Shown: piece after piece, positions 19,478 through 45,269 of the stretch
How positions within the stretch are numbered: position 1 is the first letter of the stretch
Layout of the letters: each line of letters opens with the position of its first letter
NCBI GenBank assembly: GCA_963971285.1
Contig: OZ020244.1
Coordinates: 10,292,001-10,356,000, forward strand
Direction of reading: 5' to 3'
From: Astropecten irregularis
Lineage: Eukaryota; Echinodermata; Asteroidea; Paxillosida; Astropectinidae
Length of the DNA stretch: 64,000 bases
Notes under the pieces: model-generated
Seen by the model: only the letters and a program-made list of their open reading frames with translations
Database searches by the model: none
What the model was told of the DNA's origin: nothing
Position numbers and translations under genes: made by a program

Positions 19478-21500
19478 GAGGCGGCGAGGTGACCTGCAGA
19501 GGGAGTATCACTCGATGGAATTGACATGGGTTTGGCCCCGAGCAGGAAATTTGCAGTTTGAACTGCGGAGTGAATATCCCTTGGAGTATTTATGTGGGTT
19601 TACCCCAGGGCGGGAAATTGCAGTGTGTACTGCGGAGGGCGTATCCTTCGGTGGTATTTACAGGGGGTTAGCCCTGAGCTGGGAATTGTAGTGTCTACTG
19701 CGGGGGGCGTGTTCGTCGTTGGAATTTGCAGGGGGTTAGCCCCGAGCAGGGAATTGCAATGTCTACTGCGGAGGGCGTGTCCGTCGGTGGAATTTGCAGG
19801 GCGTTAGCCCTGAGCAGGAAATTGCAGTGTTTACTGCGGAGGGCGTGTCCCTCGGTGGAATTTGCAGGGGGTTAGCCCTGAGCGGGAAATTGCAGTATGT
19901 ATTGCGGAGGGCGTGTCCCTCGGTAAAATTTACTGGCCGTTAGTCCTGAGCAGGGAATTGCAGTGTGTGCTGCGGAGGGCATGTCCGTCGGTGGAATTTA
20001 CTGGCCGTTTGTCCTGAGCAGGGAATTGCAGTGTCTACTGCGGAGGGCGTGTCCCTCGGTGAAATTTGCAGGGGGTTAGCCATGAGCGGGAAATTGCAGT
20101 GTGTATTGCGGAGGGCGTATCCCTCGGTGAAATTTGTAGGGGGTTAGCCCCGAGCAGGGAATTGCAATGTCTACTGCGGAGGGCGTGTCCGTCGGTGGAA
20201 TTTGCAGGGCGTTAGCCCTGAGCAGGAAATTGCAGTGTCTACTGCGGAGGGCGTGTCCCTCGGTGGAATTTGCAGGGGGTTAGCCATGAGCAGGACTGAA
20301 TTGCAGAGTGTACTGCGGAGGGCGTGCCCGTCGGTGGAATTTACTGGCCGTTTGTCCTGAGCAGGGAATTGCAGTGTCTACTGCGGAGGGCGTGTCCGTC
20401 GGTGGAATTTACTGGCCGTTAGTCCTGAGCAGGGAATTGCAGAGTCTACTGCGGAGGGCGTGTCTCTCGGTAAAATTTACTGGCCGTTAGTCCTTAGCAG
20501 GGAATTGCAGTGTTGTGCTGCGGAGGGCATGTCCGTCGGTGGAATTTACTGGCCGTTTGTCCTGAGCAGGGAATTGCAGTGTCTACTGCGGAGGGCGTGT
20601 CCCTCGGTGAAATTTGCAGGGGGTTAGCCATGAGCGGGAAATTGCAGTGTGTATTGCGGAGGGCGTATCCCTCGGTGAAATTCGTAGGGGGTTAGCCCCG
20701 AGCAGGGAATTGCAATGTCTACTGCGGAGGGCGTGTCCGTCGGTGGAATTTGCAGGGCGTTAGCCCTGAGCAGGAAATTGCAGTGTCTACTGCGGAGGGC
20801 GTGTCCCTCGGTGGAATTTGCAGGGGGTTAGCCATGAGCAGGACTGAATTGCAGAGTGTACTGCGGAGGGCGTGCCCGTCGGTGGAATTTACTGGCCGTT
20901 TGTCCTGAGCAGGGAATTGCAGTGTCTACTGCGGAGGGCGTGTCCGTCGGTGGAATTTACTGGCCGTTAGTCCTGAGCAGGGAATTGCAGAGTCTACTGC
21001 GGAGGGCGTGTCTCTCGGTAAAATTTACTGGCCGTTAGTCCTTAGCAGGGAATTGCAGTGTTGTGCTGCGGAGGGCATGTCCGTCGGTGGAATTTACTGG
21101 CCGTTTGTCCTGAGCAGGGAATTGCAGTGTCTACTGCGGAGGGCGTGTCCCTCGGTCAAATTTGCAGGAGGTTAGCCCTGAGCGGGAAATTGCAGTGTGA
21201 ATTGCGGAGGGCGTATCCCTCGGTGAAATTTGCTGGGGGTTCACCTTGAGCAGGAGATTGCAGTGTGTACTGCGGAGGGCGTGTCCCTCGGTGGAATTTA
21301 CAGGGGTTTAGCCCTAGGCAGGAGTGTGTCCTGCGGAGTGCCGGTATGCCCCTCGGTGGATTTTCAGGGGTTTAGCCCCGGGCAGGAGTGTGTCCTGCGG
21401 AGGGTATTGTCCCTCGGTGGATTTTACGGGGTAGTAGCCCCGGTCAGGAATGTGTAGTGTGTCCTGCGGTCGAGGGAATATCCCTCGGTGTATTTTAAGG
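19478..21500 (+). repeat. 68-bp tandem array with a 548-bp higher-order period
   Basis: About 29 copies of a ~68-bp monomer whose core is ACTGCGGAGGGCGTGTCC, then CTCGGTGGAATTT, then TTAGCCCTGAGCAGG and GAATTGCAGTGT. Monomers alternate between types (CAGGGGGTTAGCC and CTGGCCGTTAGTCC). In the middle, an eight-monomer block repeats nearly exactly with a 547-548-bp period (starts near 19961, 20507 and 21055). The outer monomers on the right (after 21300) are diverged and shortened. Short open frames across it are products of the repeat and not genes. Confidence 0.92.
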
Positions 21501-25452: not shown

Positions 25453-27038
25453 TAGCTCACGAACTTGGCATTTCTCGTCTTCTGTTCTGTTCTGTTCTCA
25501 CATATGTCTACATCCTGATAATTTTGAGTCTGCTCTACAGACAGGAAATTAATTTCCATTAAACTGTCATCATCTTCAATGATACTGGTAGATGCGCAGA
25601 TAAGGCTCGCCGCAGCGTGAACGATTTCAGCATTATTGTGCTCCTTGTCCTCGTTCCTACTAACATACTTCTTTAGAAGGTTTGCGTGAAATGTTTTGGG
25701 TTTTCCCTTAACAACTATGGCATAGTCATGTTTTGCAACTTTTTTCACTACCTCATACGGCCCCTTCCACTGCATTTTCAGTTTATTATTGTTAGTGAGC
25801 CGCAAGACTAGTACCTTGTCTCCAACTACAAACCTACGATCCCAAGTTCTAGTATCGTAATACTGTTTGTGTCTCTTGGACGCCTTAGCAAGTTCTTGCC
25901 TCGCTAGCTCACAAGTAGAGTCAAGACGGTCACGTAAATCTACTACATATTTATACGTGGTTTTGACCTCTTCCTCATTATTGTCACCTGTCTACAACTC
26001 CTTAAGTATGGCCAAAGGGCCTCTTACAGTCCTACCATACATTAACTCAAAGGGGGAGAAGTTGAGGCTTTCTTGTGGAGCTTCCCTATACGCAAACAAG
26101 AGCGCTGGCAAAAAGCGGTCCCAGTCCTTGGGCCGTTCCGCACACATTTTTCGCAGCATTTTCTTAAGCGTGCCATTGAACTTCTCAACTAAGCCATTGC
26201 ACATAGGATGATACGGTGTCGTAGTCAATTGTTTTAGAGACAGCAGACGCCCTACTTCTCTCATCATCTCGGAGGTGAAGTGACTACCCTTATCGCTCAA
26301 AATTTCTTGCGGTACGCCCATGCGAGAAAATATTTCAACTAAAGCCTCCGCCACGCGCTCAGTTTCGATGCGGGGAAGTGCCACAGCCTCGGGGTACCCT
26401 GTAGCATAATCAACCAGCGTAAGAATATATCTATTCCTACGCTCAGTGATGGGGTCAATCGGGCCTACAAAGTCGACTGCTACCCGTCGGAAAGGGGTAT
26501 CGATAAGCGGCATTTGCCCTAACGGCACCTTACTGACACTACCCTTAGTAACTGTGCGCTGGCAGATGTCACAGGAAATGCAATGTCTTTGTACATCCCC
26601 GTTAACACCCGGCCAGTAGAAGTGAGCTTGAACTCGATCTAGAGTTTTCATAACCCTCATATGGCCCGCCATTGCTGAATCATGAGCCAGTTCTAACACT
26701 TGAGTTCTATAGCGCTGAGGAACTACCAACTGTTTAGTAGGTTTCCCACTCTCTAGACTACATGATGATTTGTACTCCCTATACAGTAAATTATCTTTCA
26801 CAACATACCGGCTCTCATTACCCGCACCCGTGACTTTTACCGTGCCTACCTTAGCCAAATCCCATAACTTAGACAAAGTTAAGTCTGACCTCTGGGCATT
26901 TTCTATGTCGGTTTTGGACACAGACAGACCATTACTCCCCGGCACTTTCAGAGGGCAAAGAGGTTTTTCTCTCTTTGCTTTTGTGGGCTCTTGTCTCCAC
27001 AGCCGCAACGGACTGACTTCTAATTTGACTCTCAACAT
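25401..27038 (-). pseudogene. Gypsy integrase region (fossil)
   Basis: An N-terminal H2C2 zinc-binding part (H-D-SAMAGHMRVMKTL then C-ISCDICQ) is followed by the catalytic core: VAVDFVGPIDP, the downstream ILSDKGSHFTS block and a GLVEKFNGTLKKM block carrying D, D and E. A C-terminal chromo/GPY-like part (KMQWKGPYEVVKKV) follows at about 25700-25805. This enzyme inserts the cDNA copy. It sits upstream of RT, which defines the Gmr1-type order. Confidence 0.88.
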
Positions 27039-29731: not shown

Positions 29732-29751
29732 AAGAAAGAGAAAGAGAAAAC

Positions 29752-30219
29752 ATGATGAAAGAAAACCTAAAACCAACATATTTTGTAACTCAAAATTTTG
29801 AAAAATATAACGCCATTAACAAAAATGAGAATCATTATTACGGATTGTTTGAAAAGAAAAATTTAATCATCCATCCAGCCGTTAAAAATACAATAAACGG
29901 TTATAATTTAGTATTTATAATGCCACCCAGCTTTTGCCTCGGTATTTATGTCAATTATAAATTTCTTGAAACAAAAGTTTTAGATAATGCAACGGGATAT
30001 AAAATTTGTTACAGTTGGAACCAAAATGAGATGACAAAAGATTTTGATGATATAAGATCGCAAGTGATCAAATTTATTAACAATGAAAAAGAAACTTTAC
30101 CAAAAATAGCTACTAGCTTATTTACAAACATGGGTAAAGAATGTGTAAAACCAATTTATCAAGAACTAAACACCGCCGACAATTCAACTAAAAGAATGTA
30201 TATTAAACTTAAAACATAA
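29752..30219 (+). pseudogene. Polinton small gene, unknown product (fossil)
   Basis: A 155-codon frame just inside the left TIR, preceded by a purine-rich AAGAAAGAGAAAGAGAAAAC leader. The product is Lys/Asn/Tyr-rich, soluble in character, with no domain I recognise. It is clearly not an integrase: there is no D,D-E core or zinc finger. A further frame follows up to about 30483. It runs toward the convergent minus-strand genes starting at 38744. Confidence 0.5.
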
Positions 30220-30435
30220 GGAAAATGAAAATATATCAAACATTCTACTAAACTAATTAACAAAAATAGAGAAACAATTTTAAACATAAACGAATACGTT
30301 AATAAACCGTGTAAAATTACTCCGTACGTTTCATGCAAGGATGTATACTGGGGAACTCACGGTAAAACAGATTATTGTGCTAGTATTAGGTTTGAAGTAG
30401 AACAAGCCATTATCGTTTTAAAAGATAATCACCCT

Positions 30436-30547
30436 ATTGATATCGATACGGATTTATCATTTGATATTGAAGACATTAACTAAAATAAATTTAAAAATGT
30501 TATAAAACTTAAATATTAATAAACCAACAAAAACACCTTGTCTAATT
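30436..30547 (+). repeat. 112-bp Polinton segment duplicated left of the Ngaro element
   Basis: This segment (ATTGATATCGATACGG through CTTGTCTAATT) recurs at 37805-37916 with about one difference. The two copies border the Ngaro element exactly. Both end at the centre of the palindrome described at 37899-37930. Confidence 0.9.
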
Positions 30548-30965
30548 CCACAAGTGTAGGCCTACACATCAATTTTCCATTTGTTTCCGGTCGCTGCGAT
30601 CCGCGAAACAACACAGTGCCAATAATTATTCCATGCCTTCCGGTCGCTGCGATCCGCGAAGGCCCAATTAATACATGTTTCAAATCCAAAAATGTGCAAC
30701 TGTAACACCTTTCAGTTGGTCTCCGGTCGCTGCGATCCGCGAGACAATCTTATATAATATACAAAGGCTGAGTCCCGGCGTAACTTGTGCCGTGGAATCA
30801 TTTGCATGTATATGCATACCCATGCATGCATAACAAAAACAGTTTAAGCGTATATATAATATTGTTTAACCGCAAGGCCTTGGGAGGCTAGTTCCGGAAC
30901 TTGCAATAAGAAACCATCTTGGGGGCAATAAACTCTTTGAAGCAACATGTGCCTCAAAGGGATTA
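30548..30965 (-). repeat. Extra partial A and B unit at the Ngaro 3' end
   Basis: Beyond B2 on the minus strand lie ~95 bp of A (about 30870-30965) and then ~320 bp of B (30548-30868) with three hairpins (30581, 30635 and 30719 starts). The canonical layout ends at B2, so the 3' end has grown by a further partial repeat. Confidence 0.8.
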
Positions 30966-31725
30966 TTACCCCATGCGACAAGACGGGAAGAAATATCAGA
31001 CATTGACAAATTTTATTTCTTTGTTTAGTACGGCCAGAGCAGTTTATTACCAGATAGATTGATTACCATAGGTAATTGCATGTGTCTCCGATCGCTGCGA
31101 GTCGCGAAACACGGATTTTCCGGTCGCTGCGACCCGGGAAAATCACAACTCAATATAAAACTCAACATCATAATCCAATTTGGCTTCCGGTCGCTGCGAT
31201 CCGCGAAGCCCCATAACATTCCACAAGTGTAGGCCTACACATCAATTTTCCATTTGTTTCCGGTCGCTGCGATCCGCGAAACAACACAGTGCCAATAATT
31301 ATTCCATGCCTTCCGGTCGCTGCGATCCGCGAAGGCCCAATTAATACATGTTTCAAATCCAAAAATGTGCAACTGTAACACCTTTCAGTTGGTCTCCGGT
31401 CGCTGCGATCCGCGAGACAATCTTATATAATATACAAAGGCTGAGTCCCGGCGTAACTTGTGCCGTGGAATCATTTGCATGTATATGCATACCCATGCAT
31501 GCATAACAAAAACAGTTTAAGCGTATATATAATATTGTTTAATGATTTCATTTAACCAGACAACTGGCATAAATGTCCATCTTCACTTAAGGCTTGACCA
31601 AGAGCAAGATCAGTGAAAGAAAATGTGCACCAAAATATACTTAAAGTAAACATTTCGAGATGTTAAAATGCGGTAAATAAAAAGCCTTAATAGGGCTATG
31701 ATGGCGTTCAGAATGTAATTCCGTC
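30966..31725 (-). repeat. Ngaro split direct repeat B2
   Basis: Second copy of B1, near-identical, with six hairpins (31082, 31114, 31182, 31254, 31308 and 31392 starts). Confidence 0.85.
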
Positions 31726-31943
31726 AACACTGGGGGAAAACCAATTCAGGGGAGGGCGAAAAACTCCTGCAAAAACTCAATATCATTGCTCTGACGAAAT
31801 TTGAGGAAAACAGGAGGAAATTCCCTTCCGGCTCCATAATGGCAGCCAAGCATTGTGTAACTCCAGAACTGGATTCCCGTGAATTAACCACAAGACATGT
31901 AATGAATCAACTGAACAGGCGGCAGAAAAGGGGAGGCGGCGGG

Positions 31944-32238
31944 CTCAAAAATAATTTTTGTTAAGAACCGCACAACCGACTGGCTAAACTGCTCGGACAA
32001 AAGTGAGTGATAATTCACTAGGGTTCTGGCTATATTGACCGTCCATCTACATGTGGTATTCCGATTAATTAACTCAGTCCAGTCTTTCTGACTACAACCA
32101 TTATTTATGATCACTAGCTGGAATACCACCACTGTGGCCAGAACCGCAAGGCCTTGGGAGGCTAGTTCCGGAACTTGCAATAAGAAACCATCTTGGGGGC
32201 AATAAACTCTTTGAAGCAACATGTGCCTCAAAGGGATT
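31944..32238 (-). repeat. Ngaro split direct repeat A2
   Basis: Internal copy of A1. On the minus strand it follows B1 and precedes a 218-bp spacer (31726-31943), which is not repeated elsewhere in the window. Confidence 0.88.
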
Positions 32239-32998
32239 ATTACCCCATGCGACAAGACGGGAAGAAATATCAGACATTGACAAATTTTATTTCTTTGTTT
32301 AGTACGGCCAGAGCAGTTTATTACCAGATAGATTGATTACCATAGGTAATTGCATGTGTCTCCGATCGCTGCGAGTCGCGAAACACGGATTTTCCGGTCG
32401 CTGCGACCCGGGAAAATCACAACTCAATATAAAACTCAACATCATAATCCAATTTGGCTTCCGGTCGCTGCGATCCGCGAAGCCCCATAACATTCCACAA
32501 GTGTAGGCCTACACATCAATTTTCCATTTGTTTCCGGTCGCTGCGATCCGCGAAACAACACAGTGCCAATAATTATTCCATGCCTTCCGGTCGCTGCGAT
32601 CCGCGAAGGCCCAATTAATACATGTTTCAAATCCAAAAATGTGCAACTGTAACACCTTAAAGTTGGTCTCCGGTCGCTGCGATCCGCGAGACAATCTTAT
32701 ATAATATACAAAGGCTGAGTCCCGGCGTAACTTGTGCCGTGGAATCATGTGCATGTATATGCATACCCATGCATGCATAACAAAAACAGTTTAAGCGTAT
32801 ATATAATATTGTTTAATGATTTCATTTAACCAGACAACTGGCATAAATGTCCATCTTCACTTAAGGCTTGACCAAGAGCAAGATCAGTGAAAGAAAATGT
32901 GCACCAAAATATACTTAAAGTAAACATTTCGAGATGTTAAAATGCGGTAAATAAAAAGCCTTAATAGGGCTATGATGGCGTTCAGAATGTAATTCCGC
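32239..32998 (-). repeat. Ngaro split direct repeat B1
   Basis: Lies between the hydrolase gene and A2. It is repeated as B2 at about 30966-31725. It carries six of the fifteen hairpins (32356, 32388, 32456, 32528, 32582 and 32666 starts). Confidence 0.85.
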
Positions 32999-33071
32999 CA
33001 AACGGTCATAATTATGACCGCCGCCAAATAGCCTATGAGGCCTTGAGGACGGTATACCCGTTCTCGCGAAA

Positions 33072-33659
33072 TTAGGAATAAATGTACGTGGAAACAGCAA
33101 GTGAAAGAGCCCGTCGAAAATTTTCAATTAAAATTTGAGAACTTGCATCAGTGAGATGCACGCCATCTGGCATGTAGTGGTTGCTGTTCCACTCGATCTG
33201 GGGATGGTGGATGACACCACCTGGCGCACCCCGCATGAGGTTGTCCACCCCACGATTTATGGCCCGTCGGGCTCGCTCAACCTTGTGTTGGCGGAGTGCG
33301 CCAGTGTAGCTGACCCTTGGTAAAATGTCCGACCAAAACATGACAGCCTGAGGCAACAAGGTCCTCGTGACTGTCAAAACGTTTTTTATCAAGTCGGACA
33401 CTATTAATTTGGGAAGCATCCCCAGATCGTTTGAGCCAACATGAATTATTATCATGTGTGGCTTCTTGTCTTCTGCAATCCAACATGCATGTAGGTGGTC
33501 GTTAAAACGCCCCAAGGTGAGGCCTGCCTTGCCCAGCCAGCGGACATCCACCAGCTCTCGCAAAAGATCCCCAGCCCACGTGTCTGCTACCCGGGAGGTC
33601 CAATGAACGAAGGAGTCCCCGACCACCCACACCAGAGGCTTGTATGCCGGTCGCACCAT
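33072..33659 (-). pseudogene. Ngaro SGNH/GDSL hydrolase region (fossil)
   Basis: A 195-residue frame. Block I is WVVGDSFVHW (catalytic Ser in GDS), the block III-type motif is HVGSNDLG (GxND) and block V is PDGVHLTD (Asp and His). These match SGNH-fold esterases, known as an accessory gene in Ngaro elements. The substrate is unknown. It is the last gene before the split direct repeats. Confidence 0.85.
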
Positions 33660-33764
33660 AGCTCATGTTCATAAACGGAAGGAAACAGAAATGGAAATAA
33701 ACCCATGAGAAGGACCCACAATTGAAAAGACTAGCAAAGTCATATAGCCTATTAGTGAGAAAGT

Positions 33765-34517
33765 TCAGGTGCAATACGAATATAACGGCGAAACACGCCC
33801 GACCGCCAGCGACCCATCGATCCTTTGTATGTCTTGTTCTGAAATACCAGCCATAGCAGCAGACGTGGCTGCGCCAATACGAAAGGAATGTGATGTAAAG
33901 CGGGGGTCGTGTACACCAATGAATTGCAGGGACCGTTTTAATATTGATGTGAATTGATATCGAGTCAAGGGCGAACCATCAAAGTGAGATAAAAAATGGT
34001 TATGATTTGCTGAGCTGTCGCGCAAATATTCCGTTGCGGAAAGGACCGGGCACAACAAAATTTCACCATTGGAGACAGAGGGAATGCATAATACACAGCC
34101 CCGGCCAAATTGATCCGTCTTGGAAAAACGGACATTAACTTCCAGAACGCCCCCAGTAGGAAGATGTCTAAGTGTGACATCTGACCTCTTTAAAGGGGAA
34201 CTCGCATTACGGGATGTCGCAGTAAGCTCCCCCACGCGCATAAAACCGAAAAATGCCAAAAGAAAGGCTACACGGAACAGTAACGCTTCAAACTGATTGG
34301 TACAAACAGACTGCAATGCAGGAATAATACGACGGAGAAGGTCAAATGTAATAGGACGTCGTGTATCCCGACGGCTGTTACGTCGTCGACAACCAGTTAA
34401 CAACCGTTTGACAATGAAATGCTGGGTTATATCTGGCAAACTATGTAGACGTAAAGTACAAGCAATTCCCGTAACATACGATGTTATTGTTGCAGGAGAA
34501 TAACTATTAACAGACAT
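33765..34517 (-). pseudogene. Ngaro tyrosine recombinase region (fossil)
   Basis: About 250 residues. An N-terminal SAM-like helical part (YSPATITSYVTGI) is followed by the catalytic domain with FLLAFFGFMRVGELT (first Arg), a beta-sheet SDVTLRHL/KTDQFGRG part and a SHSFRIGAATSAAMAG box (H-x-x-R). It would integrate a circular DNA intermediate, without the target duplication that D,D-E integrases make. It sits between RT-RNase H and the hydrolase. Confidence 0.88.
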
Positions 34518-34654
34518 AAATGCAATAAATTGAACAAGTTGATGTAAGGAACAATGAGAACCAGGAGAACTTGGACCATGATGGGAAACAAACCAACAAA
34601 AGAAATTCCAAGCACGTTGGTAAAGCGAATGAGTGTGGGGAGCGACAGAATCTA

Positions 34655-36330
34655 CTAGGAGGCCGTGAACTTCAAGCCGAAGTCGTTCCAGAGATCTGGG
34701 GGCAAGGGTGTCATACTGGGGTCTGCCTCGGGCGCCAACTGGAAGAATTTCTTCATCTGTAGGCGCGATAATGAATCTGCGATAGAGTTAGCAATGCCGG
34801 GAACATGACGTGCTTTAAATGTAATATTCAATGTCAAACAACGGACAACAAACATTCGGACCAGTTGCATAATATGCGGACAGCGAGAAGTCTGACGATT
34901 AATTATAGCCACTACTGCTTCATTATCCGTCCAGAAAATAACTCGCTTATTCTGCAACGTAAGGCCCCATAATTGAAGTGCTAAGACAATTGGGAAAAAT
35001 TCAAGGAAAGCAATGGAAAACTTCCTTGAACGAATCTCCATGGGCCATCTACCGTGCGTCCATTTACCATTAAAGAATGCACCAAAGCCTATTTCTGCCG
35101 AAGCGTCTGTAAACAAATGCAAATTATCACTTGAATGCCAAACGTCCTCAGTGAAAATGACCGCACCATTAAAATGTGCCAAGAATTGCCTCCATACCAA
35201 CATGTCAGCACGGGCCCCCGAAGAAATACGGACTCGAAGGTGTGGCTTTTGAACGCCAGTAGTCAAGTCAAACAAACGACGCAAAAAAGCGCGACCAGGA
35301 CGCACAGCCTTACAAATAAAATTCAAACTGCCTAACAGCGACTGGAGCTCTCGTAGTGTAAGTTTGTGTTTGCCTAAAGCAGAATCTAATTTCATCAAAA
35401 TCGAAGCTAGTTTGTTCGATGGAATCAAAATTTTCTGACTGACAGTATCAATCGCTAAACCAAGAAAAGTGATGAGAGTGGCTGGTCCTTCGGTTTTGTC
35501 CATGGCCAAGGGAACCCCAAACTCCTTACATAATATTGTAAATGACTGAAGTGCACGAGCACAGTCCAGGGACTGAGCACTACCAACAAAAAGGAAATCG
35601 TCAAGGTAGTGTATGATGTTATCTGACACTGCCACTTTGCGAGCACAATATTCAAGGAAAGAGCTAAAACGCTCGAACGTTACACAGGATATAGAACAGC
35701 CCATTGGCATACATTTATCATAATAATATGACCCATTGACGCAGAAACCTAACAGATTAAAGTCATGCGGGTGCACTGGTAATAATCGGAACGCTGACTT
35801 AATATCTGATTTTGCCATGCATAAGGGCACCGGGACCTAGGCGAGAAACTAAGGTAACAGCATCATCAAAACTGGTATCATTAACAGCAGTAAGAGATGG
35901 GTCAATGTGATCATTAACAGAATCACCAATAGGGGAGGATAGATTGTGAATCAAGCGAAACTGACCCGGGGTTTGTTTTGGTACTAGACCAACAGGAGAA
36001 CAACGCAAATCCGGCAAGGGGGGGCTGGAATAAGGCCCAGCAACGCGGCCCAAACGCACCTCACGGGCAATTTTGTCAAGTAACAGTGTGTGATTTTCAC
36101 GTGCTGATAATAGATTACGAGCCGAGGAACTGACACGTGGCCCGGAATAACCCAAACGAAACCCGTAAGTGAAACCATCTATTAATGCAAGTGCATCTTG
36201 TTGCGCTGGGTATGAGCGGAGAAAGGGAATCATTCTACTTAGAATTATTGGGGTTGGCAAGTGTGGTTGAGTTGGCTGTACTCCGCGCATTGCGGGAACT
36301 ACCCCTGCAAGTATTGGCGGAGTGGCCAAG
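34655..36330 (-). pseudogene. Ngaro reverse transcriptase-RNase H region (fossil)
   Basis: The DIRS-type RT starts with SRMIPFLRSYPAQQDALALI and a GFRLGY block, then PVGLVPKQTPGQFRLIHNLS. The palm follows with SDIKSAFRLLPVHP and the YLDDFLFVG catalytic block. RNase H follows with LFTDASAEIGFGA, a WTDNEAVVAIIN block and ADSLSR near the C terminus. The order and motif wording match the DIRS/Ngaro family and not gypsy. Confidence 0.88.
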
Positions 36331-37396
36331 GGACATGCATGCGGAACATTTGTGCAAGAATCGACAGGCCGGTCGGAGGCACTGACCGCGGTTGAAATCG
36401 AAACAGATACCGACGGTGGTGGATCGCTGATCTTGGGAAGAGGCACGAAAAGTGCCGGCGCGCTGCTGAGTAGGCTTAGAGGAGAAGGGACGAAAATTAT
36501 GTTGGGCCGGGGGGCCAACAAGCATTAGCCACAACTCTGCATCAATGCTAGCCCATGAACGTGCCGGCATCCGTGCTTGCCGTAAGCGAAACTGAATATC
36601 ATAGTCCCGCCAACCATAACCTACGCGGCGAAAGGCAGCGGACCTGATGGTATCGGCATATTTGAGCAACTGACGCGCACGGTCCGGCTGGCGCATCAGG
36701 TAAATAGATGTAAAAAATTAAGAACGCCGACGTCCACTGCTCGATGGACGTAATACGCGCATTGGGGGTATGAGGCCGAATTTGCCATGCAGGTGACTCT
36801 TGAGAACCGACCATCAGCACACAATCGGTGGAAGAATACGGACCCAAACTTGTACGAGCCGGCCGTAGTAAAGAGCCGAATTCAACGAATTCGCCATTCC
36901 AAATTTTGTCGCGAATTTGTTGTGGAACCCCCAATCCCAGGTCATCGCAGACGCTTGTTAAAGCCGATTGAGAATGGTCAAGTGAAGATGCGGGTTGAAC
37001 GGACAGAGGTGGCATGTTGATGGGCAAAGTAGCCTGGCTAGTACTAGTGCTAGACAAAGTGGTAGTGGTAGCTGGACAATTATTATTGGTCAAAGTAAGT
37101 GAAGGACTGAACGGATTTAACTCACCCAATCCCGATGCGACGGGTTGAGGCAGAACAGGATCGGTAGAACCAGGGGGGCCCGGCACCATCGAAGGGCCAG
37201 CCGAAGAAGTGCCTGTAGCTGACGGTAAGGTCGGCGGTGGTCCAACCACCGAGGCATCAGACGCCGACGTGGACACGGGAGCTTCGGCCGGCCCAGGCCG
37301 AACGGTGCGAGGCCTCCCCCGCGTCCTCCTTCCCTGGAGGACCGGTCCAGTTGATGTCCTCTTACTTTTTGACTTAGGCATCACGTTAACACACAA
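36235..37396 (-). pseudogene. Ngaro gag region (fossil)
   Basis: It begins at 37396 after the A1 repeat. The N-terminal ~150 residues are Pro/Ser/Thr-rich and disordered, with a basic KSKSKRTSTG start. A helical domain follows. The C-terminal part has a zinc-binding CFDFNRGQC-x4-C-x3-HKC-x2-C-x4-GHSANTC arrangement characteristic of DIRS/Ngaro Gag. The product would package element RNA. Confidence 0.75.
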
Positions 37397-37512
37397 TTAA
37401 GTTGTATATTCAATTGAAATGAATAAGAGCAATAAAGTAACAACTTAAATAAATTGAAGAATTTAGCACAGAGAGTATTACTAAAAAACGGCGAATAAGA
37501 TAGGAACAAGGT

Positions 37513-37804
37513 CTCAAAAATAATTTTTGTTAAGAACCGCACAACCGACTGGCTAAACTGCTCGGACAAAAGTGAGTGATAATTCACTAGGGTTCTGGCT
37601 ATATTGACCGTCCATCTACATGTGGTATTCCGATTAATTAACTCAGTCCAGTCTTTCTGACTACAACCATTATTTATGATCACAAGCTGGAATACCACCA
37701 CTGTGGCCAGAACCGCAAGGCCTTGGGAGGCTAGTTCCGGACCTTGCAATAAGAAACCATCTTGGGGGCAATAAACTCTTTGAAGCAACATGTGCCTCAA
37801 AGGG
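37513..37804 (-). repeat. Ngaro split direct repeat A1
   Basis: The 5' terminal repeat (minus strand), about 99% like A2 at 31944-32238. It contains none of the covarying hairpins. Confidence 0.88.
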
Positions 37805-37916
37805 ATTGATATCGATACGGATTTATCATTTGATATTGAAGACATTAACTAAAATAAATTTTAAAATGTTATAAAACTTAAATATTAATAAACCAACAAA
37901 AACACCTTGTCTAATT
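37805..37916 (+). repeat. 112-bp Polinton segment duplicated right of the Ngaro element
   Basis: Second copy of 30436-30547. After it, native Polinton sequence continues through the other arm of the palindrome. Confidence 0.9.
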
Positions 37917-37930
37917 AGATAAGGTGTTTT
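37899..37930. terminator. Palindrome between convergent Polinton genes, Ngaro target site
   Basis: The arms AAAACACCTTGTCT and AGATAAGGTGTTTT surround a central AATT, with one G/T mismatch in 14 pairs. It lies between the plus-strand gene that ends near 30483 and the minus-strand gene that ends at 37956, so a shared transcription-end or RNA-processing hairpin is plausible. The Ngaro junction falls right after the central AATT. Confidence 0.7.
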
Positions 37931-37955
37931 AATTACGTTATTTTTTAAAAACTAA

Positions 37956-38744
37956 CTATTTTAAATGTTTTTGTAAATAAACTAAAATTAACCCCCCAAT
38001 ACCGATTAACATAGCCCAAACGTGACCGGCTAAAAATCCCACCCCTTTACCCAAAAGATTAAACAACCAACTGGCGATACTCCCTAAAATACCCGGTAAA
38101 GCAACTAATAATTTACCTCCAATTTTTTTAAGTAAACTCGCTAAATTTGTTAAATGCTCTTCCATCCATTCTTTTACACCACCACACCACTTTGGATCGG
38201 GTGTTGGTGGTTTTGGAGTAACCGCTGTGGCACCCCCACCCACAGCCGCAACCACGCTACTAATAAGGGTACTTATAGCCAAACTAAAAGCGGCTAAAAT
38301 ACTAACAATCGTCACACCTTGTTCTCTAAACAACGCTCTAATTTTTTCAATTAAAGTTCTATCGGAATTTAAAATACTTCTTATCGATTCATTAAATTTA
38401 GTATTATATTTTTTTAAAGAGTCATCAATATTACTAATAGCCGAATTTTCAAAATCTATATTTCCATTAATAGACGTTAAATCATCATTTAATTTTCTCT
38501 TTTCTTCATCGGGTAGGGTATTATCTTTTAATTTTTCTTCAAAATCAATACGATCGCTTTTAAATTTATCTAATCTAATTTGATGGTCTTCACGAGCACC
38601 ATTTAATGTTGCCATTTTATTAAGATAACCATTAAACTCTCTAGCTTCTTGTTCAAATCCTTCGCTTATAAGAATCTCATTGACTCTAGCGATGCGCTCT
38701 TCTTCGGTTAGATTTTTATCTAACAGCCCTTTTTCTAAAGACAC
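37956..38744 (-). pseudogene. Polinton membrane-associated protein, unknown (fossil; frame looks whole)
   Basis: 262 residues. Residues 1-140 are charged and coiled-coil-like. Residues ~143-170 form a hydrophobic segment (TIVSILAAFSLAISTLISSVVAAV), followed by a Pro-rich linker. Residues ~205-260 hold two more hydrophobic segments, LLVALPGILGSIASWLFNLL and VWAMLIGIGGLILVYL. Long Polintons commonly carry such hydrophobic virion-type proteins, but I do not recognise this one. The function could be membrane binding or penetration; this is inference only. Confidence 0.6.
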
Positions 38745-38778
38745 GCTTACTTTTTTACTTACTTTTCTATTATAATCG

Positions 38779-39168
38779 CTAATCCCAAGAACCCTTTGTA
38801 ATGAATTCTACACCATTTTTATTTTGTTTAATAGTTGATAATGCTAAAAACTTTTTTGAATTATTTGCATGCGTTAATTGAACATATTTACTACCATATT
38901 TACATAAAAGGTTATCTTTAGCATCTAAGATAAAATCACTTGGGATTATAAGGCCTGGGGTATATCCATATTCTTCTTTTATAAACTTATAAAAGTCATC
39001 AACTTTTAATTTAGTCAATTCTTTACGTTGTTGATCAAGGTTGGTAAAGCTTGTTTCTTGTTGATTTGTCTCATTGTAGGTGGGGTCCAAAATCGTATCT
39101 TCTTGTTGATTTTCAATATCTTCATCTTGTTCAGGCTCGTCATCACCAGGTGGATCAAAACCTTCCAT
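38779..39168 (-). pseudogene. Polinton small acidic protein, unknown (fossil)
   Basis: 129 residues. The N-terminal 45 are strongly acidic and Gln-rich. A compact domain follows (KLKVDDFYKFIKEEYGYTPG and DAKDNLLCKYGSKYVQLTH). No family is recognised. It lies immediately upstream of the 262-residue membrane protein on the same strand. Confidence 0.5.
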
Positions 39169-39219
39169 CTGAATGTCTTTTTCCTCCTTCAGCCATTTTT
39201 ATTATTATACATTATTTTA

Positions 39220-39459
39220 TTAAACTGTAGAATTAGTAATTATATTTGGTGGCAGTATACCCTGTGATACTAAAAATGATTGCGTGGCTATAGCGCCACC
39301 AACGGTTACCGAAATTTTTGCGGTATCTTCAATATCTAACTTATCTAAATTAGCCGGTTTTATTTTTAAAAGCTTTTTACCTAACATCGTATAACCCATC
39401 GTTAACAAACTCAAAACCGCACCGTGATAAAGATTATTAGCAATCGTTTTTGTGTCCAT
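39220..39459 (-). pseudogene. Polinton small hydrophobic protein (fossil)
   Basis: 79 residues with two modest hydrophobic stretches (GAVLSLLTMGYTMLG and ISVTVGGAIATQSFLV). No family is recognised. It is one of a run of small co-oriented minus-strand genes. Confidence 0.45.
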
Positions 39460-39503
39460 TTTTAATTAACCAAAAGAATTATTATTATTTTTTTTTAAAT
39501 TTT

Positions 39504-39713
39504 TTATTCCATATCTCCCGGTGTAACTACTGAATCAGTTTTTGGTTTTTTAGTTTTTAAAATTATTGGGGCGCTAGTTATTTTTGTTTTTTGTTTGTAA
39601 AAATAAATCCCAGCAGTAACCACAACCGCTATTATACCTAGACCTAACAAGTTTTTGTTATCGAATCTCGAATCCCGATGGTTGTCTTCCGGTTCAATTT
39701 CAGCATTTTTCAT
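39504..39713 (-). pseudogene. Polinton single-pass membrane protein (fossil)
   Basis: 69 residues with one clear membrane segment (LLGLGIIAVVVTAGIYFY, residues ~22-40) followed by a Lys-rich tail. Small single-span proteins are common among virion components of Polinton-like viruses. The identity is unknown. Confidence 0.5.
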
Positions 39714-39792
39714 TTTATATAATTGTCCTTTTATTTTTTTATTTCTTGCTGCTAATTTTTTACCTTGTTCAACTCTTTTTGGATTTTTAATT

Positions 39793-40179
39793 TTAGTTTA
39801 AGTCACTGTTGTTATCGGCTTGCTCGTCATTTCCATCGGTTGTCCCTTGGGCTTCTCCGTTTGGTTTTCCGTTTGATCTGTGGGGTTTTCCATTTATAAT
39901 AATAGGATTAAAATACTTTTTAAAAGTTAAATGTTTACTCGTTATCATTGTCATCATTGGCGGTGATAAATAGAATCCGTAGTTGTAATAAATTTCACAA
40001 AGTACGTTACGTAGACCAATAGAAATAAATGGATCATCTTCAAGATCACTTGTAAGATCATCTTCTGAATCTAACTCCAGTTGGTAACCATCGGGTAAAG
40101 CTTGCGAAAGAATAGGTAGACTCACACCTAACGCTTTAGAATATAATCTAAATACGCAAGAACCCATACTTTTTATCAT
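39793..40179 (-). pseudogene. Polinton small protein with acidic patch (fossil)
   Basis: 128 residues with an acidic LELDSEDDLTSDLEDD patch in the middle, a Tyr-rich YYNYGFYLSPP block and a polar Gly/Asn/Asp-rich tail. No family is recognised. Confidence 0.45.
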
Positions 40180-40191
40180 TTCTTTACTCAG

Positions 40192-40398
40192 TTAAGCTTC
40201 ATAATTTCTATACAACTTTTCTAGTTTTTCTTTATATAGTTTTTCAATCTCATCAACTGAATAATCTTTACCTAAATAATGTTTAGATTTACCGCTCGAG
40301 ACAATCGCCAATAATCTATTTTTATGAAGAGATTCAGATGTTGTCTCTGGTGAGCTTGCTGTTGTTGCCAAGTCGTTTAATTTTACTATGCCACTCAT
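40192..40398 (-). pseudogene. Polinton small protein (fossil)
   Basis: 68 residues, polar, ending in a helical KLYKEKLEKLYRNYEA tail. No family is recognised. It is the first gene downstream of the GCTAGC array on the minus strand. Confidence 0.4.
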
Positions 40399-40540
40399 TT
40401 ATATTAACAAAATATTTTTTTAAGTAAGTTCTAATTGTTAAATAATCATAAGTCAAAAAACTTAATAGTATCATTAAAATAGTTTTATTAAAAATATCTA
40501 TAATTTCAATAATTTATAATAAAACAGAATTTTTTTTTAA

Positions 40541-40690
40541 AGCTAGCTATTTAACAAATTACAGTTAGCTATACAGCAATTTACAGCTAGCTTTACAGCA
40601 AATTACAGCTAGCTATACAGCAAATTACAGCAAAATATCAACAAATTACAGCTAGCTATACAGCAAATTACAGCTAGCTACAGCAAAATT
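40541..40690. repeat. GCTAGC palindromic short tandem array in the Polinton
   Basis: Six to seven copies of a ~22-bp unit (TTACAGCTAGCTATACAGCA) with the 8-bp palindrome AGCTAGCT in most units. It lies in the only sizeable gene-free gap of the minus-strand gene block, between the packaging ATPase (ends 40724) and the small-gene cluster (starts 40398). Confidence 0.85.
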
Positions 40691-40723
40691 ATTTATTTAT
40701 ATATAAACTTAAATTTAAAAAAC

Positions 40724-41335
40724 TTAAAACAATTTCCACCAAATAGGCGGATCTGTTTTTATAATCAATTTACTATACGGTACATTTTTTAAATGATTTT
40801 TAATGTGAACGATCTCTTCTACAGAAACCCCATAATTTTCATCTAAACACTGATCAAAACTCTTTTTATCTTTACAATAAAATAACGCGACGAATTGAGT
40901 TTGCTCGCGGTAATCTTTCAAAACGTTGTTATATTTTTGCGTTAATAACCAACAACTATGATTATCGTGTCGACCTGAATACGCTAGTTTTGTTAACTCA
41001 CACTTTTCTCGTCGATATTTAATTTCTTGTAATGCGCTACAATCATCTATAATGAATAAAACGCTAATATCTTTTAATGCTTTTCGATAAATACCTAAGG
41101 CTGTATTGAGGGTCACATTTTCAGAATCAATGTCGCATAAAAAAATATTTTCATCTCCCCAAAGCCACAATCTATCTTTATACGTTTTATTATTTCCTAA
41201 AGTGGGGCAAATAATGACAATTTTTTCAAAGTTGTTTTTATACTCGTTTTCTAACATGTCTAAAATAAATTTAGTTTTACCGCAATTTGTTCTTCCACAA
41301 ATCAAGGCACAATGATGATTTTTAGGTAACTCCAT
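40724..41335 (-). pseudogene. Polinton packaging ATPase, FtsK/HerA type (fossil; frame looks whole)
   Basis: 203 residues. Walker A is ICGRTNCGKTKFILDML near residues 13-29. Walker B is VLFIIDDCS near residue 95. A downstream sensor-type block reads SGRHDNHSCWLLTQKYN. This matches the poxvirus A32/adenovirus IVa2-like genome-packaging ATPases of Polintons, adintoviruses and virophages, which pump DNA into the capsid. It lies next to the capsid gene region, as is usual. Confidence 0.9.
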
Positions 41336-41352
41336 ATTTTAAATAAACTATT

Positions 41353-41985
41353 TTAATATTGTACTCTACTATTCTACGGTATAGGTACTCGCATGACCAG
41401 AACCCTTGGGAGGATCGGGGGGACCAAACCCCATATAAGTAGCCCCCGCGTAACGACCAAAATTTGTTAAAACGTGAGCGTCGTAATTTTTACCCGGTAC
41501 CACTAGACCAGCACCGTAATAAGCGGTACCTAAACACCCCCCGAAGTTTTATCCACGGTTTGTTTCCAATTATGATTTTGATCTACGTCAAAAAATCTAC
41601 AAGTATCGACGTAAGCTTCGTGATCTATATTGTTGTTAATCGGGTTAAAAATATTATCACCTGGAATTGGGCATTTTAAGAATTCTTATATTTTTCTAAT
41701 CGTAAAATAAACGTGAAATTTAAATAAATTGGCTATCGTTAAATCCCCCGATGATAAAATATCTATCCCCACACCACATCCTGAAGTAGCGCACCAAACT
41801 GCAAAATTTAATTGATTTTGATAAAAATTTAACGGGTGAGTTTCGTAACGGTTAATATCTTCATCGGTCCTAATATCCGGTAAAAGATACGCGCTAAATA
41901 TATCTTTAAAATTGGCTTGAAATGTTTCTCCTTCTTTCGATTTTACTACGATTACCGGTTTATTCAAATAATTTTTCACACTCAT
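41353..41985 (-). pseudogene. Polinton major-capsid-type protein region (fossil)
   Basis: The reading starts at 41985 with SVKNYLNKPVIVVKSKEGE and reaches a LFKFHVYFTIRKI strand, a wording seen at the N terminus or in the middle of jelly-roll capsid proteins of Maverick elements. The C-terminal-looking part ends in a PPKGSGHAS-type tail near 41390. The region is broken and much shorter than an intact double-jelly-roll capsid gene. Position beside the packaging ATPase supports the call. Confidence 0.55.
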
Positions 41986-42015
41986 TTTTATTTAATATTA
42001 ATATAAATAAAAAAA

Positions 42016-42780
42016 ATGAAACCTTTAATGTCGCATTCGTTTAGGATGACAGAAAATGAAGAAACGTTTAAGTTAGCGAGACCGATTAATACGGAGGATC
42101 GAGATGTATGGATCGGTTTAAAAAATGTTTATTTAACTGTGGGGATCTTTAATATACGATCGCGTACTTTTATTCAACCTGCAACATTAGGAAAGAACGG
42201 TGAACGCCTATTTTTATCGGAAAAAGAAAACAAAATTTTTATCGAACCTGGTCTTTATCCTATTGATTATTTTGTTAATTTATTTAAAGATATTATAGCG
42301 AGTAGCGCTACTTGGTTAGATGTAGAACTAGATTATGCAGCCTCAAAAATTACGTTAACATTAACACCACCTTATATATTACTTTTGGAGGAACCCCTTT
42401 TAAAAATATTAGGTTTTAAAACCTTACCCTTAGGAGGTGTTAATGTGGGTTATTATAAAATCAATCCTAAACATGTTTTATACCTTTATTGTGAACAGAT
42501 TAAAAAAGAAACACATTTTTTTAATGGTCACTCTTCCGATCTTTTATCCATAGTTCAAACCGCTAAAAATAATAAGTTACCAAAGCGATTTATATATGAA
42601 CCTATCATTGCGAAATTTGATGAAAAAATGAAAAAACTCGTAAATGATCAAATCAATGAGTTCACGTTTAGCGTACGAGACTGCAAAGGTAGAATCCTTA
42701 ACAATCGAGGAAAACAAATTATGTTAAATGTTGATATTTATTTTAAAAAATTAATAAACGATAAATATAAATCTAAATAA
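42016..42780 (+). pseudogene. Polinton virion-type protein, minor-capsid candidate (fossil; frame looks whole)
   Basis: 254 residues on the plus strand, divergent from the capsid region 30 bp away. An N-terminal WIGLKNVYLTVGIFNI block, a middle LDVELDYAASKITLTL block, and a C-terminal QINEFTFSVRDCKGRILNNR block with a beta-rich tail match proteins found beside capsid genes in Polintons. A single-jelly-roll minor capsid (penton) role is my best guess. A diverged second copy follows directly. Confidence 0.55.
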
Positions 42781-42784
42781 TAAA

Positions 42785-43486
42785 ATGAAACCTTTAATGT
42801 CACATTCGTTTAGGATGGCAGAAAACGAAGAAACGTTTAAGTTGGATGAACCCATAAATACAACGAATAAAGAGGCGTGGATGAGTTAAAAAAATGTTCA
42901 CATCGATGTAGGGGTTTTAAATATTAAACATAAATCGAAAATAAGTTTGACTCAATTTACCGATAAAGAACCATTAGACAATCCGATTCGTACGTTATAT
43001 TGTATCGATCCTGGTCGTTATTCTATTGATTATTTCAAAGATTTACTCAAAGATATAGAACGGTTAGAGATAGAACTAGATTATAATGAGTCAAAAATTA
43101 CGATAACAAACAACTCCGATAGTCATTATTTAGTTTTAGACCCATCTATTAAAAAAAATTATTAGGTTTTAGTTATTCCGAGTTATCAAGTGGTGAATAT
43201 GTAGGTTATTATAAAAACGTAGAACGAGTGTACCATCTTTGTTGTGAACAAATCGAGAAAGATTTTTAATTTTTATAACGGAAACCCCTGTTGTCTTTTA
43301 GCCATTGTTCCGATCGTAGAAACTGACTACGATCCTGCCCCCTTTTTATACTTTAAATTTAAATCTCAATTGAAGCAACTCGTAAATGATCAAATCAATG
43401 AGTTCACGTTTAGCTTACGAGATTGCGAAGGAAAAATTATTAATAATAGAGGAAGAGAAATTATTTTAGATGTAGAAATGTATTAA
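42785..43486 (+). pseudogene. Tandem second copy of the virion-type gene (fossil, broken)
   Basis: It begins with the same KPLMSHSFRM start 4 bp after the stop of the first copy and ends with the same NDQINEFTFSLRDCEGKI block. It is clearly paralogous, diverged, slightly shorter and broken in several places. Confidence 0.75.
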
Positions 43487-43516
43487 TTTAAAAAAAGTTT
43501 TGTGTTATTATTTAAA

Positions 43517-43766
43517 ATGACGAAGACGATTACGAATGCAAATACAAGCGCTATAAGTTCAGCGGGGTCCACAGCAGACCTAAGACCCACTATAAACCTT
43601 TGTCCACAGTTACCTCCTAAACCAGACCCGGTTGATACGACCGATGTTAGTAAAATCTATATATTAAAAAAAATAGAAAGCATTAAATCCCAAATAACCA
43701 AAGAGAGGGATAACAGAGAAAGACAACATAAAAAGATAAAAAGAATTATAACAGCGATTCATTACG
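43517..43766 (+). pseudogene. Polinton gene, 5' part before the hAT-like insertion (fossil)
   Basis: A Thr/Ser-rich start and a Pro-rich QLPPKPDP segment lead into a basic helical region (KKIESIKSQITKERDNRERQ). The native sequence is interrupted at 43767 by the hAT-like element; Polinton sequence resumes at 44776. No family is recognised. Confidence 0.5.
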
Positions 43767-44769
43767 CAGAGATGCAACTGACCTATGCAAAAAAAATCGG
43801 AAAATGACCGCGAGTATGAATATTTTGTGCGCTGCACCGCGGCGCGCGTGTAGACACACGGCACAACCCAATGGAGTGAATGTACATGTGTGTACATGCT
43901 GTGCAGTCGGCTAGGATATGGAGACGAAAGTTTATCGATATTCACTGGTCTTTCATGATGTCAGTTGCAGCATGAGTTACATTTTACTCAAGAATTACGA
44001 ACGTACGTGACAAACTTTTCAGCCCTAGAACTAAGGCAGCGTCCTACCTGGCATGCCTGGCAAACGAAGTTGTCTTTCGTGGTAGGCCCATGATAATGGA
44101 GGAAGGAAGGCCTGACGTTGCGTTAGGCCTAAAACTTAACTTAACTTCCTTTTCTTCAAGCCGTATCTTCATTATAATTTGCCTTTGATATCTTTTTCGA
44201 TACCATAAAGATAATTTTTTTCTGTCGACAATTAGATGTTGCATTCTTTAATTCTGTAGTGAAGGCCTGTTGGTTTGATATGAACGAAAAGTGACAGCGC
44301 GAATGAATCAGCAGCATAAATCCCACGTGCACGAAACAACGTACAGTAGGACTACGTGTAAACATGTGCTGTTATGTGCATGCATTCGTTGTGTGCATCG
44401 CATCGAGTGAGCCCATGAGATCACGCGCTATTGGTCATTTACTTGTGTCAAAGGTCAATATATAAACGTATTTCCAGTCACTGACGGCTCCACACAACAC
44501 CTGCCTTCGTATTCTCATACCGCAATTACTCTGTACGACTGACGTTAACACTGGAATGGCGACTACGCGTGAGATTTAATACTCATTCGCGCAGTGCAGG
44601 CCGTGCGTGCATGATAGTTTGGTTTCGATCTTTAGTTTTTTTTTCAAAATAAATTGTAAAATTCAAAGCATTTTACGAGAGTAGCCTGATGCTGAACAAA
44701 ATCGGAAATGGTGTGGAAAATAGGAAAAAGTCGGATTTCCGATTAAAATCGGCAAAAGTTGCATCTCTG
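43767..44769. mobile_element. 1003-bp non-autonomous hAT-like transposon, 6-bp target duplication
   Basis: Terminal inverted repeats CAGAGATGCAACT at both ends (43767-43779 and 44757-44769), with exact ATTACG duplications outside (43761-43766 and 44770-44775). CAGRG-type TIR ends are hAT-like. A 6-bp duplication fits the hAT6 variant rather than the usual 8 bp. It is GC-richer than the Polinton around it and has no transposase frame. Confidence 0.85.
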
Positions 44770-44775
44770 ATTACG

Positions 44776-45254
44776 TAGAAACTGGCATGGGTTTAGTCAG
44801 TGGAGTTTCAGCGGGTATGAGTATCTCCTCACTCTTAGGGGTGATAACAGCTCCAGTGGGATTGGTTTTATCCGGTATGACCATAGGAGTGTGTAGTATG
44901 ATGATGGGGCTAAAATATGTATCAAAAAGATTAACGTATAAAACTAAAAAACACGATCAAATACGAACATTAGCCGATGCTAAACTTAACACGATAGAAG
45001 AATACGTGTCAAAAGCTATCGATGATGGTGATATCTCGCACGAAGAATTTTTATTAATCACTGCGGAACTAAAGAAATTTAACGAACTTAAAGAAAAATT
45101 TAGAAGTAAAACAGCAACCGCGCTTAAGCAAAATCAAGATATCGAAGCGCAGGTTAAAAAAAAAGTAGAAGAGAAATTAGCCGAACAAAAAAAAAAGATC
45201 TTATCGCAAATTTTGGAAATTAGAGTTCACGAGAGAACGAGTCTTATTAGATAA
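44776..45254 (+). pseudogene. Polinton gene, 3' part after the hAT-like insertion (fossil)
   Basis: About 155 residues. A glycine-rich hydrophobic GMSISSLLGVITAPVGLVLSG stretch, probably membrane-interacting, is followed by a long charged coiled-coil region (KKHDQIRTLADAKLN through QVKKKVEEKLAEQ). It runs convergently toward the polymerase gene. The product is unknown. Confidence 0.5.
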
Positions 45255-45269
45255 TGAACAGCCACCTAA

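Follow-up and report, generated by a model that had tools for sequence, protein, structure and literature searches.

The 64-kb window, the whole stretch of DNA analysed, carries on its minus strand, at about 30548-37807, a retrotransposon with an array of small hairpins in its 3′ repeats (Table 1). Read in the sense direction, the plan is of Ngaro type and comprises an A1 repeat, a Gag-like region, a reverse transcriptase (RT), a tyrosine recombinase and a GDSL/SGNH-type hydrolase, followed by 3′ repeats in the order B1, A2, a 213-nt unrepeated stretch, B2 and a further partial A plus partial B unit. The repeat copies are 99-100% identical, and the 860-nt direct repeat that holds B1 and B2 (30868-31727 and 32142-33001) is 99.5% identical. 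Within the Gag-like region, the zinc knuckle of the CX2CX4HX4C form reads CSACMSLGHSANTC, and the CCCH finger also matched PF22628 (E 3e-5, under the cut-off of that family). RVT_1 was matched with an E-value of 3.5e-11, while the RNase H part of the RT region was recognised by eye only. The tyrosine recombinase matched PF00589 with 25.7 bits, just under the Pfam curated cut-off of 27.1, at an E-value that is itself significant. A Pfam scan of six element ORFs at E 0.001 produced no match to an rve integrase and none to the methyltransferase-like domain that is a trait of DIRS/PAT elements. With split repeats, an RT and a tyrosine recombinase that scores below the curated cut-off, and without rve or methyltransferase, the element is Ngaro-like. 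This copy looks decayed, as its RT region is divided between two frames with a junction near 35.8 kb; given repeat identities of 99-100%, it is probably a young element, or else sequencing accounts for some of the frame errors.

In the available portions of PMC8547959 and PMC9210276 the Ngaro plan is given as A1-[ORFs]-B1A2B2, which the present element matches, with the partial A-B unit and the 213-nt stretch in addition. According to the accessible sections of PMC9210276, Ngaro elements with a hydrolase ORF following the recombinase are found in amphibians, and DIRS-53_XT of Xenopus likewise combines gag, RT, tyrosine recombinase and an SGNH hydrolase ORF with split repeats A1 ... B1A2B2. In contrast to DIRS-53_XT, our element has the two additions just named and is flanked by a 112-bp duplication. 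The recipient of the insertion contains an A32-like ATPase and is Maverick/Polinton-like by eye. An endogenous virophage Ngaro of Cafeteria burkhardae is likewise nested in a DNA-virus-like element, according to excerpts of PMC8547959, the ATPase and the Maverick/Polinton-like character setting the recipient described here apart from those virophages.

Table 1. Features of the Ngaro-like element and its hairpins (positions in the window)
Feature	Positions	Strand	Remarks
A1 repeat, 5′ end of the element	37510-37807	-	repeat comparison
Gag-like region	36235-37396	-	two frames; CCCH finger and CX2CX4HX4C zinc knuckle
Reverse transcriptase region	34655-36521	-	two frames; RVT_1 in 34655-35830
Tyrosine recombinase	33765-34517	-	PF00589, E 1.1e-5
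GDSL/SGNH-type hydrolase ORF	33072-33659	-	PF13472, E 5.2e-9
B1 repeat	32239-33001	-	matches 30965-31727
Two sense AATAAA hexamers	32286-32322	-	32286-32291 and 32317-32322; 64 and 33 nt after the last B1 hairpin
A2 repeat	31941-32238	-	99% identical to A1 (298 nt)
Stretch between A2 and B2	31728-31940	-	213 nt; no second copy in 30400-38100
B2 repeat	30965-31727	-
Extra partial A and partial B, 3′ end	30545-30964	-	partial A 30868-30964, partial B 30545-30869; holds types 1-3
Hairpin type 3, B1 copy	32666-32692	-	outer GTCTC/GAGAC
Hairpin type 2, B1 copy	32582-32610	-	outer GCCTTC/GAAGGC
Hairpin type 1, B1 copy	32528-32558	-	outer TTGTTTC/GAAACAA
Hairpin type 6, B1 copy	32456-32484	-	outer GGCTTC/GAAGCC
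Hairpin type 5, B1 copy	32388-32418	-	outer GATTTTC/GAAAATC; lowest-energy fold with one 2-nt bulge
Hairpin type 4, B1 copy	32356-32386	-	outer GTGTTTC/GAGACAC, one U.G on sense; middle CGA/TCG
Hairpin type 3, B2 copy	31392-31418	-	as above
Hairpin type 2, B2 copy	31308-31336	-	as above
Hairpin type 1, B2 copy	31254-31284	-	as above
Hairpin type 6, B2 copy	31182-31210	-	as above
Hairpin type 5, B2 copy	31114-31144	-	as above
Hairpin type 4, B2 copy	31082-31112	-	as above
Hairpin type 3, terminal copy	30719-30745	-	as above
Hairpin type 2, terminal copy	30635-30663	-	as above
Hairpin type 1, terminal copy	30581-30611	-	as above

The first-pass annotation had described fifteen hairpins of six types in the B-type repeats, and a scan with their core pattern found all of them again, types 1-3 being present three times each and types 4-6 twice. 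Within the hairpins the repeat copies are identical, and the few differences between copies fall outside them. We therefore rejected the use of the 15 copies as 15 independent cases: there are six types, and the other nine hairpins are exact repeat copies that add no covariation. All six types have, in the sense orientation, an identical CAG triloop and TCG/CGA tip, as had been annotated. Five types have CGG/CCG as their middle helix, and type 4 has CGA/TCG; the difference amounts to a two-sided change at one pair and bears out the compensatory substitution proposed for type 4. The outer helix measures 5 bp in type 3, 6 bp in types 2 and 6, and 7 bp in types 1, 4 and 5, and all six types carry their unpaired extra bases on the sense 5′ arm only. 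The annotation had placed two one-base bulges at fixed positions in every type. This is true of five types, where the stem below the triloop runs for 3 bp before the first extra base, but not of type 5, whose lowest-energy fold, the same as RNA and as DNA, is predicted to have an 8-bp outer helix, a single 2-nt bulge and a 5-bp inner helix. Hairpins of types 4 and 5 abut.

The core pattern, derived from these same hairpins, matched the window 15 times when up to three mismatches were allowed, always inside the element, compared with 0.03 matches expected in shuffled sequence. Simulated windows contained about 2.25 instances per strand of the architecture alone, any sequence being admitted, and one unrelated architecture-only match lies at about 31872. 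In a shuffle test that related sequences may exceed without any structure, paired cells made up 96.2% of 78 in the six types compared with a shuffled mean of 84.0%, 11 cells were changed on both sides compared with 4.2, and the covariation score was 0.415 compared with 0.171, values that none of 500 shuffles reached; two-sided changes at 6 of the 13 stem pairs, against 3.3 in shuffles, were reached by 7 of the 500. Sliding one arm by 1-3 columns lowered pairing to 23-51%, and the true matching of arms was the single best among 720 permutations. Over 11 stem pairs, the two outermost pairs of the outer helix being left out, five types differed from the reference, type 1, by 13 base changes (six two-sided changes and one U.G) with none of 55 cells broken. 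Random placement of the 13 changes over those pairs broke 10.0 cells on average and at least 2 in 100,000 trials. Outer pairs 3-5 were paired in 18 of 18 cells, for which independent cells with the base composition of the spacers would give a probability of about 1e-7. Unpaired cells occurred in the two outermost pairs, where they numbered 3 of 12. The earlier statement that the outer helix differs between types and yet stays paired in each holds above the controls, but not as far as the outermost pairs. The stability of single hairpins was modestly above that of dinucleotide shuffles (z -1.76 to -2.66 as sense RNA). The data set consists of six sequences from one element copy, and on these six types the maintenance of the fold by compensatory change is supported. 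Chance or pattern-picking, which the frequency of the bare architecture and the origin of the core pattern might suggest, is refuted as far as counts allow by the 15 core matches and the complete pairing of outer pairs 3-5, and we give it practically no weight. All in all, these results indicate that the hairpins probably represent a selected fold of some single strand.

We then considered kinship among the six types. The 30-nt flanks of different types were not significantly alike, none of 20 comparisons falling below P 0.1 (lowest 0.132); these were 20 of the 30 possible pairs, the left flank of type 5 and the right flank of type 4 being left out because those hairpins abut. Unlike flanks are what would be seen if each hairpin were a small mobile or dispersed hairpin that had landed separately in the repeat. 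However, with as many as three mismatches allowed, the rest of the 64-kb window contained no copy, the arms differ in matched pairs, a result that simple copying does not produce, and the outer 5′ arms of different types share 27 of 60 identities compared with 16.7 for random spacer words (P 0.02), so that separate insertion appears improbable. Using blastn, stretches spanning several hairpins aligned at 68-69% with many gaps, and types 1 and 6 together with some left flank aligned at 84%; some kinship of the spacers is possible. At the inner five pairs, a single pair-step separates each type from some other type. This closeness and the likeness of the outer arms argue against arms that were copied anew, site by site, from unrelated sequence. 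Our reading is that the types descend from a hairpin unit and changed by compensation in one pair after another, the spacers losing most of their likeness meanwhile.

The same comparisons bear on whether mutation, and not selection, matched the arms, through short template switches in DNA or cDNA synthesis that copy one arm onto the other. Template switching is described as creating and maintaining hairpins and as giving compensatory changes (PMC8794818, in the part of the article available). The differences between types 1 and 5, at three adjacent outer pairs, would fit one such copying event, and the finding of one half-way state only, the U.G of type 4, also agrees with template switching. 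In contrast, full copying of an arm should erase bulges, yet every one of the six types retains its extra bases, always on one arm, so template switching alone is not an easy explanation. The single pair-steps between types at the inner pairs and an apex kept nearly letter for letter also speak against it, and we consider this origin of the matched arms unlikely.

The first-pass annotation had proposed, more specifically, a selected RNA fold. The compensatory pairing of the six types agrees with selection on a fold; the evidence on the strand was divided. Type 4 has a U.G pair on the sense strand where the antisense strand has C.A, as annotated, and this is the only half-way state seen. Folded on its own, type 4 reached -13.3 kcal/mol as sense RNA (z -1.97) compared with -9.5 kcal/mol as antisense RNA (z -0.63). 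In contrast, type 1 gave z -3.22 as antisense and -1.76 as sense RNA, and type 5 gave z -3.11 and -2.37, respectively, single-hairpin antisense folds having been computed for three of the six types (1, 4 and 5). Local folding in context, which also left out the two outermost pairs, assigned the hairpin a higher probability on the antisense strand in 11 of the 15 copies, with mean pair probabilities of 0.34-0.82 on the antisense and 0.13-0.64 on the sense strand. The antisense preference of these 11 copies and the z-scores of types 1 and 5 count against sense RNA, whereas the U.G pair, the sense-RNA fold of type 4 and the position of the array count for it. The higher scores that the hairpin model R1 gave on the sense strand were rejected as strand evidence because R1 was built on that strand. 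We lean to RNA of the sense strand, mainly on account of one U.G pair, and rate it slightly better than an even call.

Single-stranded DNA was weighed alongside RNA. As DNA, five of the six types beat most shuffles on either strand (z -2.1 to -3.6), and the element encodes a tyrosine recombinase. Folded as single-stranded DNA, the hairpins could, for example, help to prime the second strand, help the B repeats to anneal or serve the tyrosine recombinase as sites. Against this, the DNA folds of type 4 did not surpass shuffles (z -0.51 and 0.00 on the two strands), no hairpin was found at any repeat junction or element end, and it is the tip that is conserved, not the stem base; we regard a role as folded DNA as distinctly unlikely. 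The attC sites of integrons, where recombination uses a folded single strand, have RYYYAAC/GTTRRRY boxes and carry extra-helical bases on one arm. The present hairpins have in common with them the extra-helical bases on one arm, in an element that itself encodes a tyrosine recombinase; they differ in being much smaller and in being conserved at the tip instead of the base. Identity with attC was rejected, as the RYYYAAC/GTTRRRY boxes occurred in none of the six types (70-nt sense context). Sites whose folded single strand is read by structure, by the tyrosine recombinase or the RT during circle formation, would be a eukaryotic counterpart of structure-read recombination sites, in which the fixed tip and the extra-helical bases might set the strand used. 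We hold this version to be very unlikely.

The position of the array is that of a presumed 3′ UTR: it lies after the last ORF and just before sense AATAAA hexamers. In 30501-38000, sense AATAAA occurs only as the B1 pair and its B2 copies, which start at 31012 and 31043, and 15 such hexamers lie on the other strand. The number of sense hexamers was rejected as a signal, since two were found and 1.2 are expected by chance (32142-37807); only their place counts, and it is suggestive. An ATTAAA in the sense direction at 32812, with a copy at 31538, counts against sense RNA: most of the array, if not the whole, lies downstream, and transcripts could thus also terminate before reaching it. Position in a presumed 3′ UTR would also suit a host triloop reader of 3′ UTRs, such as Roquin, that binds the array and controls the element mRNA. 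The sense CAG, present in all six types, fits the YRN triloop of constitutive decay elements as given in the accessible text of PMC6294493, and the antisense CUG does not. The relaxed consensus in the same portion of that article nevertheless has a stem of 6-8 bp with G.U left out, whereas the stem here is interrupted after 3 bp in five types and type 4 has a U.G, so that the hairpins were rejected as constitutive decay elements: the triloop fits and the stem does not. A transposon would moreover hardly gain by keeping decay signals, and regulation through a reader of the Roquin kind seems to us a poor prospect.

Known RNA families and possible relatives were then searched. Against Rfam, iron-responsive element included, no hairpin was matched at E up to 5 in 30400-38000, and the sole match listed, at 37205-37305, was under its gathering score. 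In the viral contig collection, the core pattern had one match, whose outer arms did not match by eye, and which gave no relative; the RT pieces, the tyrosine recombinase and the hydrolase found no Ngaro relative there; a loosened hairpin pattern hit 22 stretches with one match each, again with no Ngaro relative; and the packaging ATPase of the surrounding element had no relative in this collection. In prokaryote genome contigs there was one match, on a Shinella contig (24.4 bits with R1), and the RT region had no blastn match among plasmids. Run over 24 pattern-chosen loci, R1 returned 27 matches at E up to 1, with a best score of 30.0 bits, E-values that are not fair because the loci had been chosen by nearly the same pattern. 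The best of them lies inside a 170-aa ORF that adjoins a topoisomerase-subunit-like ORF (by eye), and the 24 loci were counted as chance and not as relatives. In the literature, the word hairpin is absent from the main texts of four papers on Ngaro or other tyrosine-recombinase elements (PMC8547959, PMC4157794, PMC9210276 and PMC6681497), and searches for Ngaro together with hairpin, stem-loop, palindrome, secondary structure or packaging showed no such array among the titles listed, subscription papers lying outside them.

With regard to function, all hairpins would share an apex, in which TCG-CAG-CGA sits on a short CGG/CCG helix and one arm has the extra bases, while the lower helix would be free in sequence and need only to pair. 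Hairpins read by a protein are expected to conserve the apex and to let the lower stem vary, and the retention of the apex while the 30-nt flanks of the types are unlike supports such a reading. The MS2 operator and the GACG hairpins of MLV are packaging hairpins read by coat protein or Gag. They have in common with the present array fixed loop and bulge features on a stem of free sequence; they differ from it in loop and architecture and in having an established protein partner. We propose that selection on the folded RNA may keep the stems paired, that a protein may read the apex, and that the likeliest reader would be the element's own zinc-knuckle Gag, whose binding might gather the transcript for packaging through many weak sites acting together. 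The available part of PMC6681497 links the CX2CX4HX4C motif to RNA packaging, in the Gag of retroviruses and of some tyrosine-recombinase retrotransposons. A cis-acting array of recognition hairpins in the Ngaro 3′ UTR, its apex read by a protein, most likely Gag, for packaging, is our tentative interpretation, put at somewhat less than an even chance, and Gag as the putative reader we hold more tentatively still.

If the arms prove to be kept by template switching, the array would be a clear warning that covariation alone is not proof of RNA function. The means by which tyrosine-recombinase retrotransposons prime, and by which they tag their RNA for reverse transcription and packaging, are to our knowledge unsettled. 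If relatives share the covariation, the array would offer a ready-made candidate for such a cis signal, with a small conserved apex that could be tested against Gag, RT and recombinase.

The Ngaro-type retrotransposon on the minus strand is nested within what looks like a Maverick/Polinton-type element (about 29750-30480 and 37956-47660), and the point of insertion lies between two ORFs, one on the plus strand ending at 30219 and one on the minus strand ending at 37956. The recipient carries an A32-like packaging ATPase, for which no relatives were found in our scan of a collection of viral contigs. The ORFs at 45270-46516 look, by eye, like a type B DNA polymerase; a Pfam search of these ORFs gave no polymerase match. 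According to a report on Cafeteria virophages (PMC8547959), Ngaro is found there too, which provides a comparison case for the nesting described here.

On either side of the Ngaro element stand copies of the same 112-bp flanking DNA (30436-30547 and 37805-37916; 99% identity), a duplication that resembles a very long target-site duplication. To our knowledge, target-site duplication is not expected from YR elements. At both junctions, ATT is common to the element end and the flank, and the middle of a near-perfect palindrome at about 37899-37930 coincides with the insertion point.

Compared with the textbook plan, in which the ORFs are followed by B1A2B2, the 3′ end of the element (30545-30964) holds a surplus unit, a partial A repeat (97 nt) fused to a partial B repeat (325 nt). 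At their joint lies ACCGCAAGG, and the same letters are present in A1 and A2. A perfect palindrome, GTGTAGGCCTACAC, is located near this end at 30554-30567, with further copies. The A repeat also has a long imperfect stem of its own (32022-32145, and 37591-37714 in A1), formed by GGTTCTGGC.../GCCAGAACC around GTGGTATTCC/GGAATACCAC.

Further features of the window
Feature	Position	Match or unit
A32-like packaging ATPase, in recipient element	40724-41335	PF04665, E 2.1e-6
Long satellite array	19494-21455	about 68 (and 64) nt
Long satellite array	62528-63754	about 61 nt
ORF with LTR-type integrase domains	25992-27038	rve, H2C2
LINE-type endonuclease/RT ORF	5062-6903	

Elsewhere, a 51-nt tandem repeat at 8838-8937 has its own hairpin, GTGTTCGGGTTCAAGCCGAACAC, and the model built from the Ngaro hairpins matched weakly near 9925 (9925-9957), equally on both strands. 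With an LTR-type integrase ORF and a LINE-type endonuclease/RT ORF also present, the window holds a high density of mobile elements.
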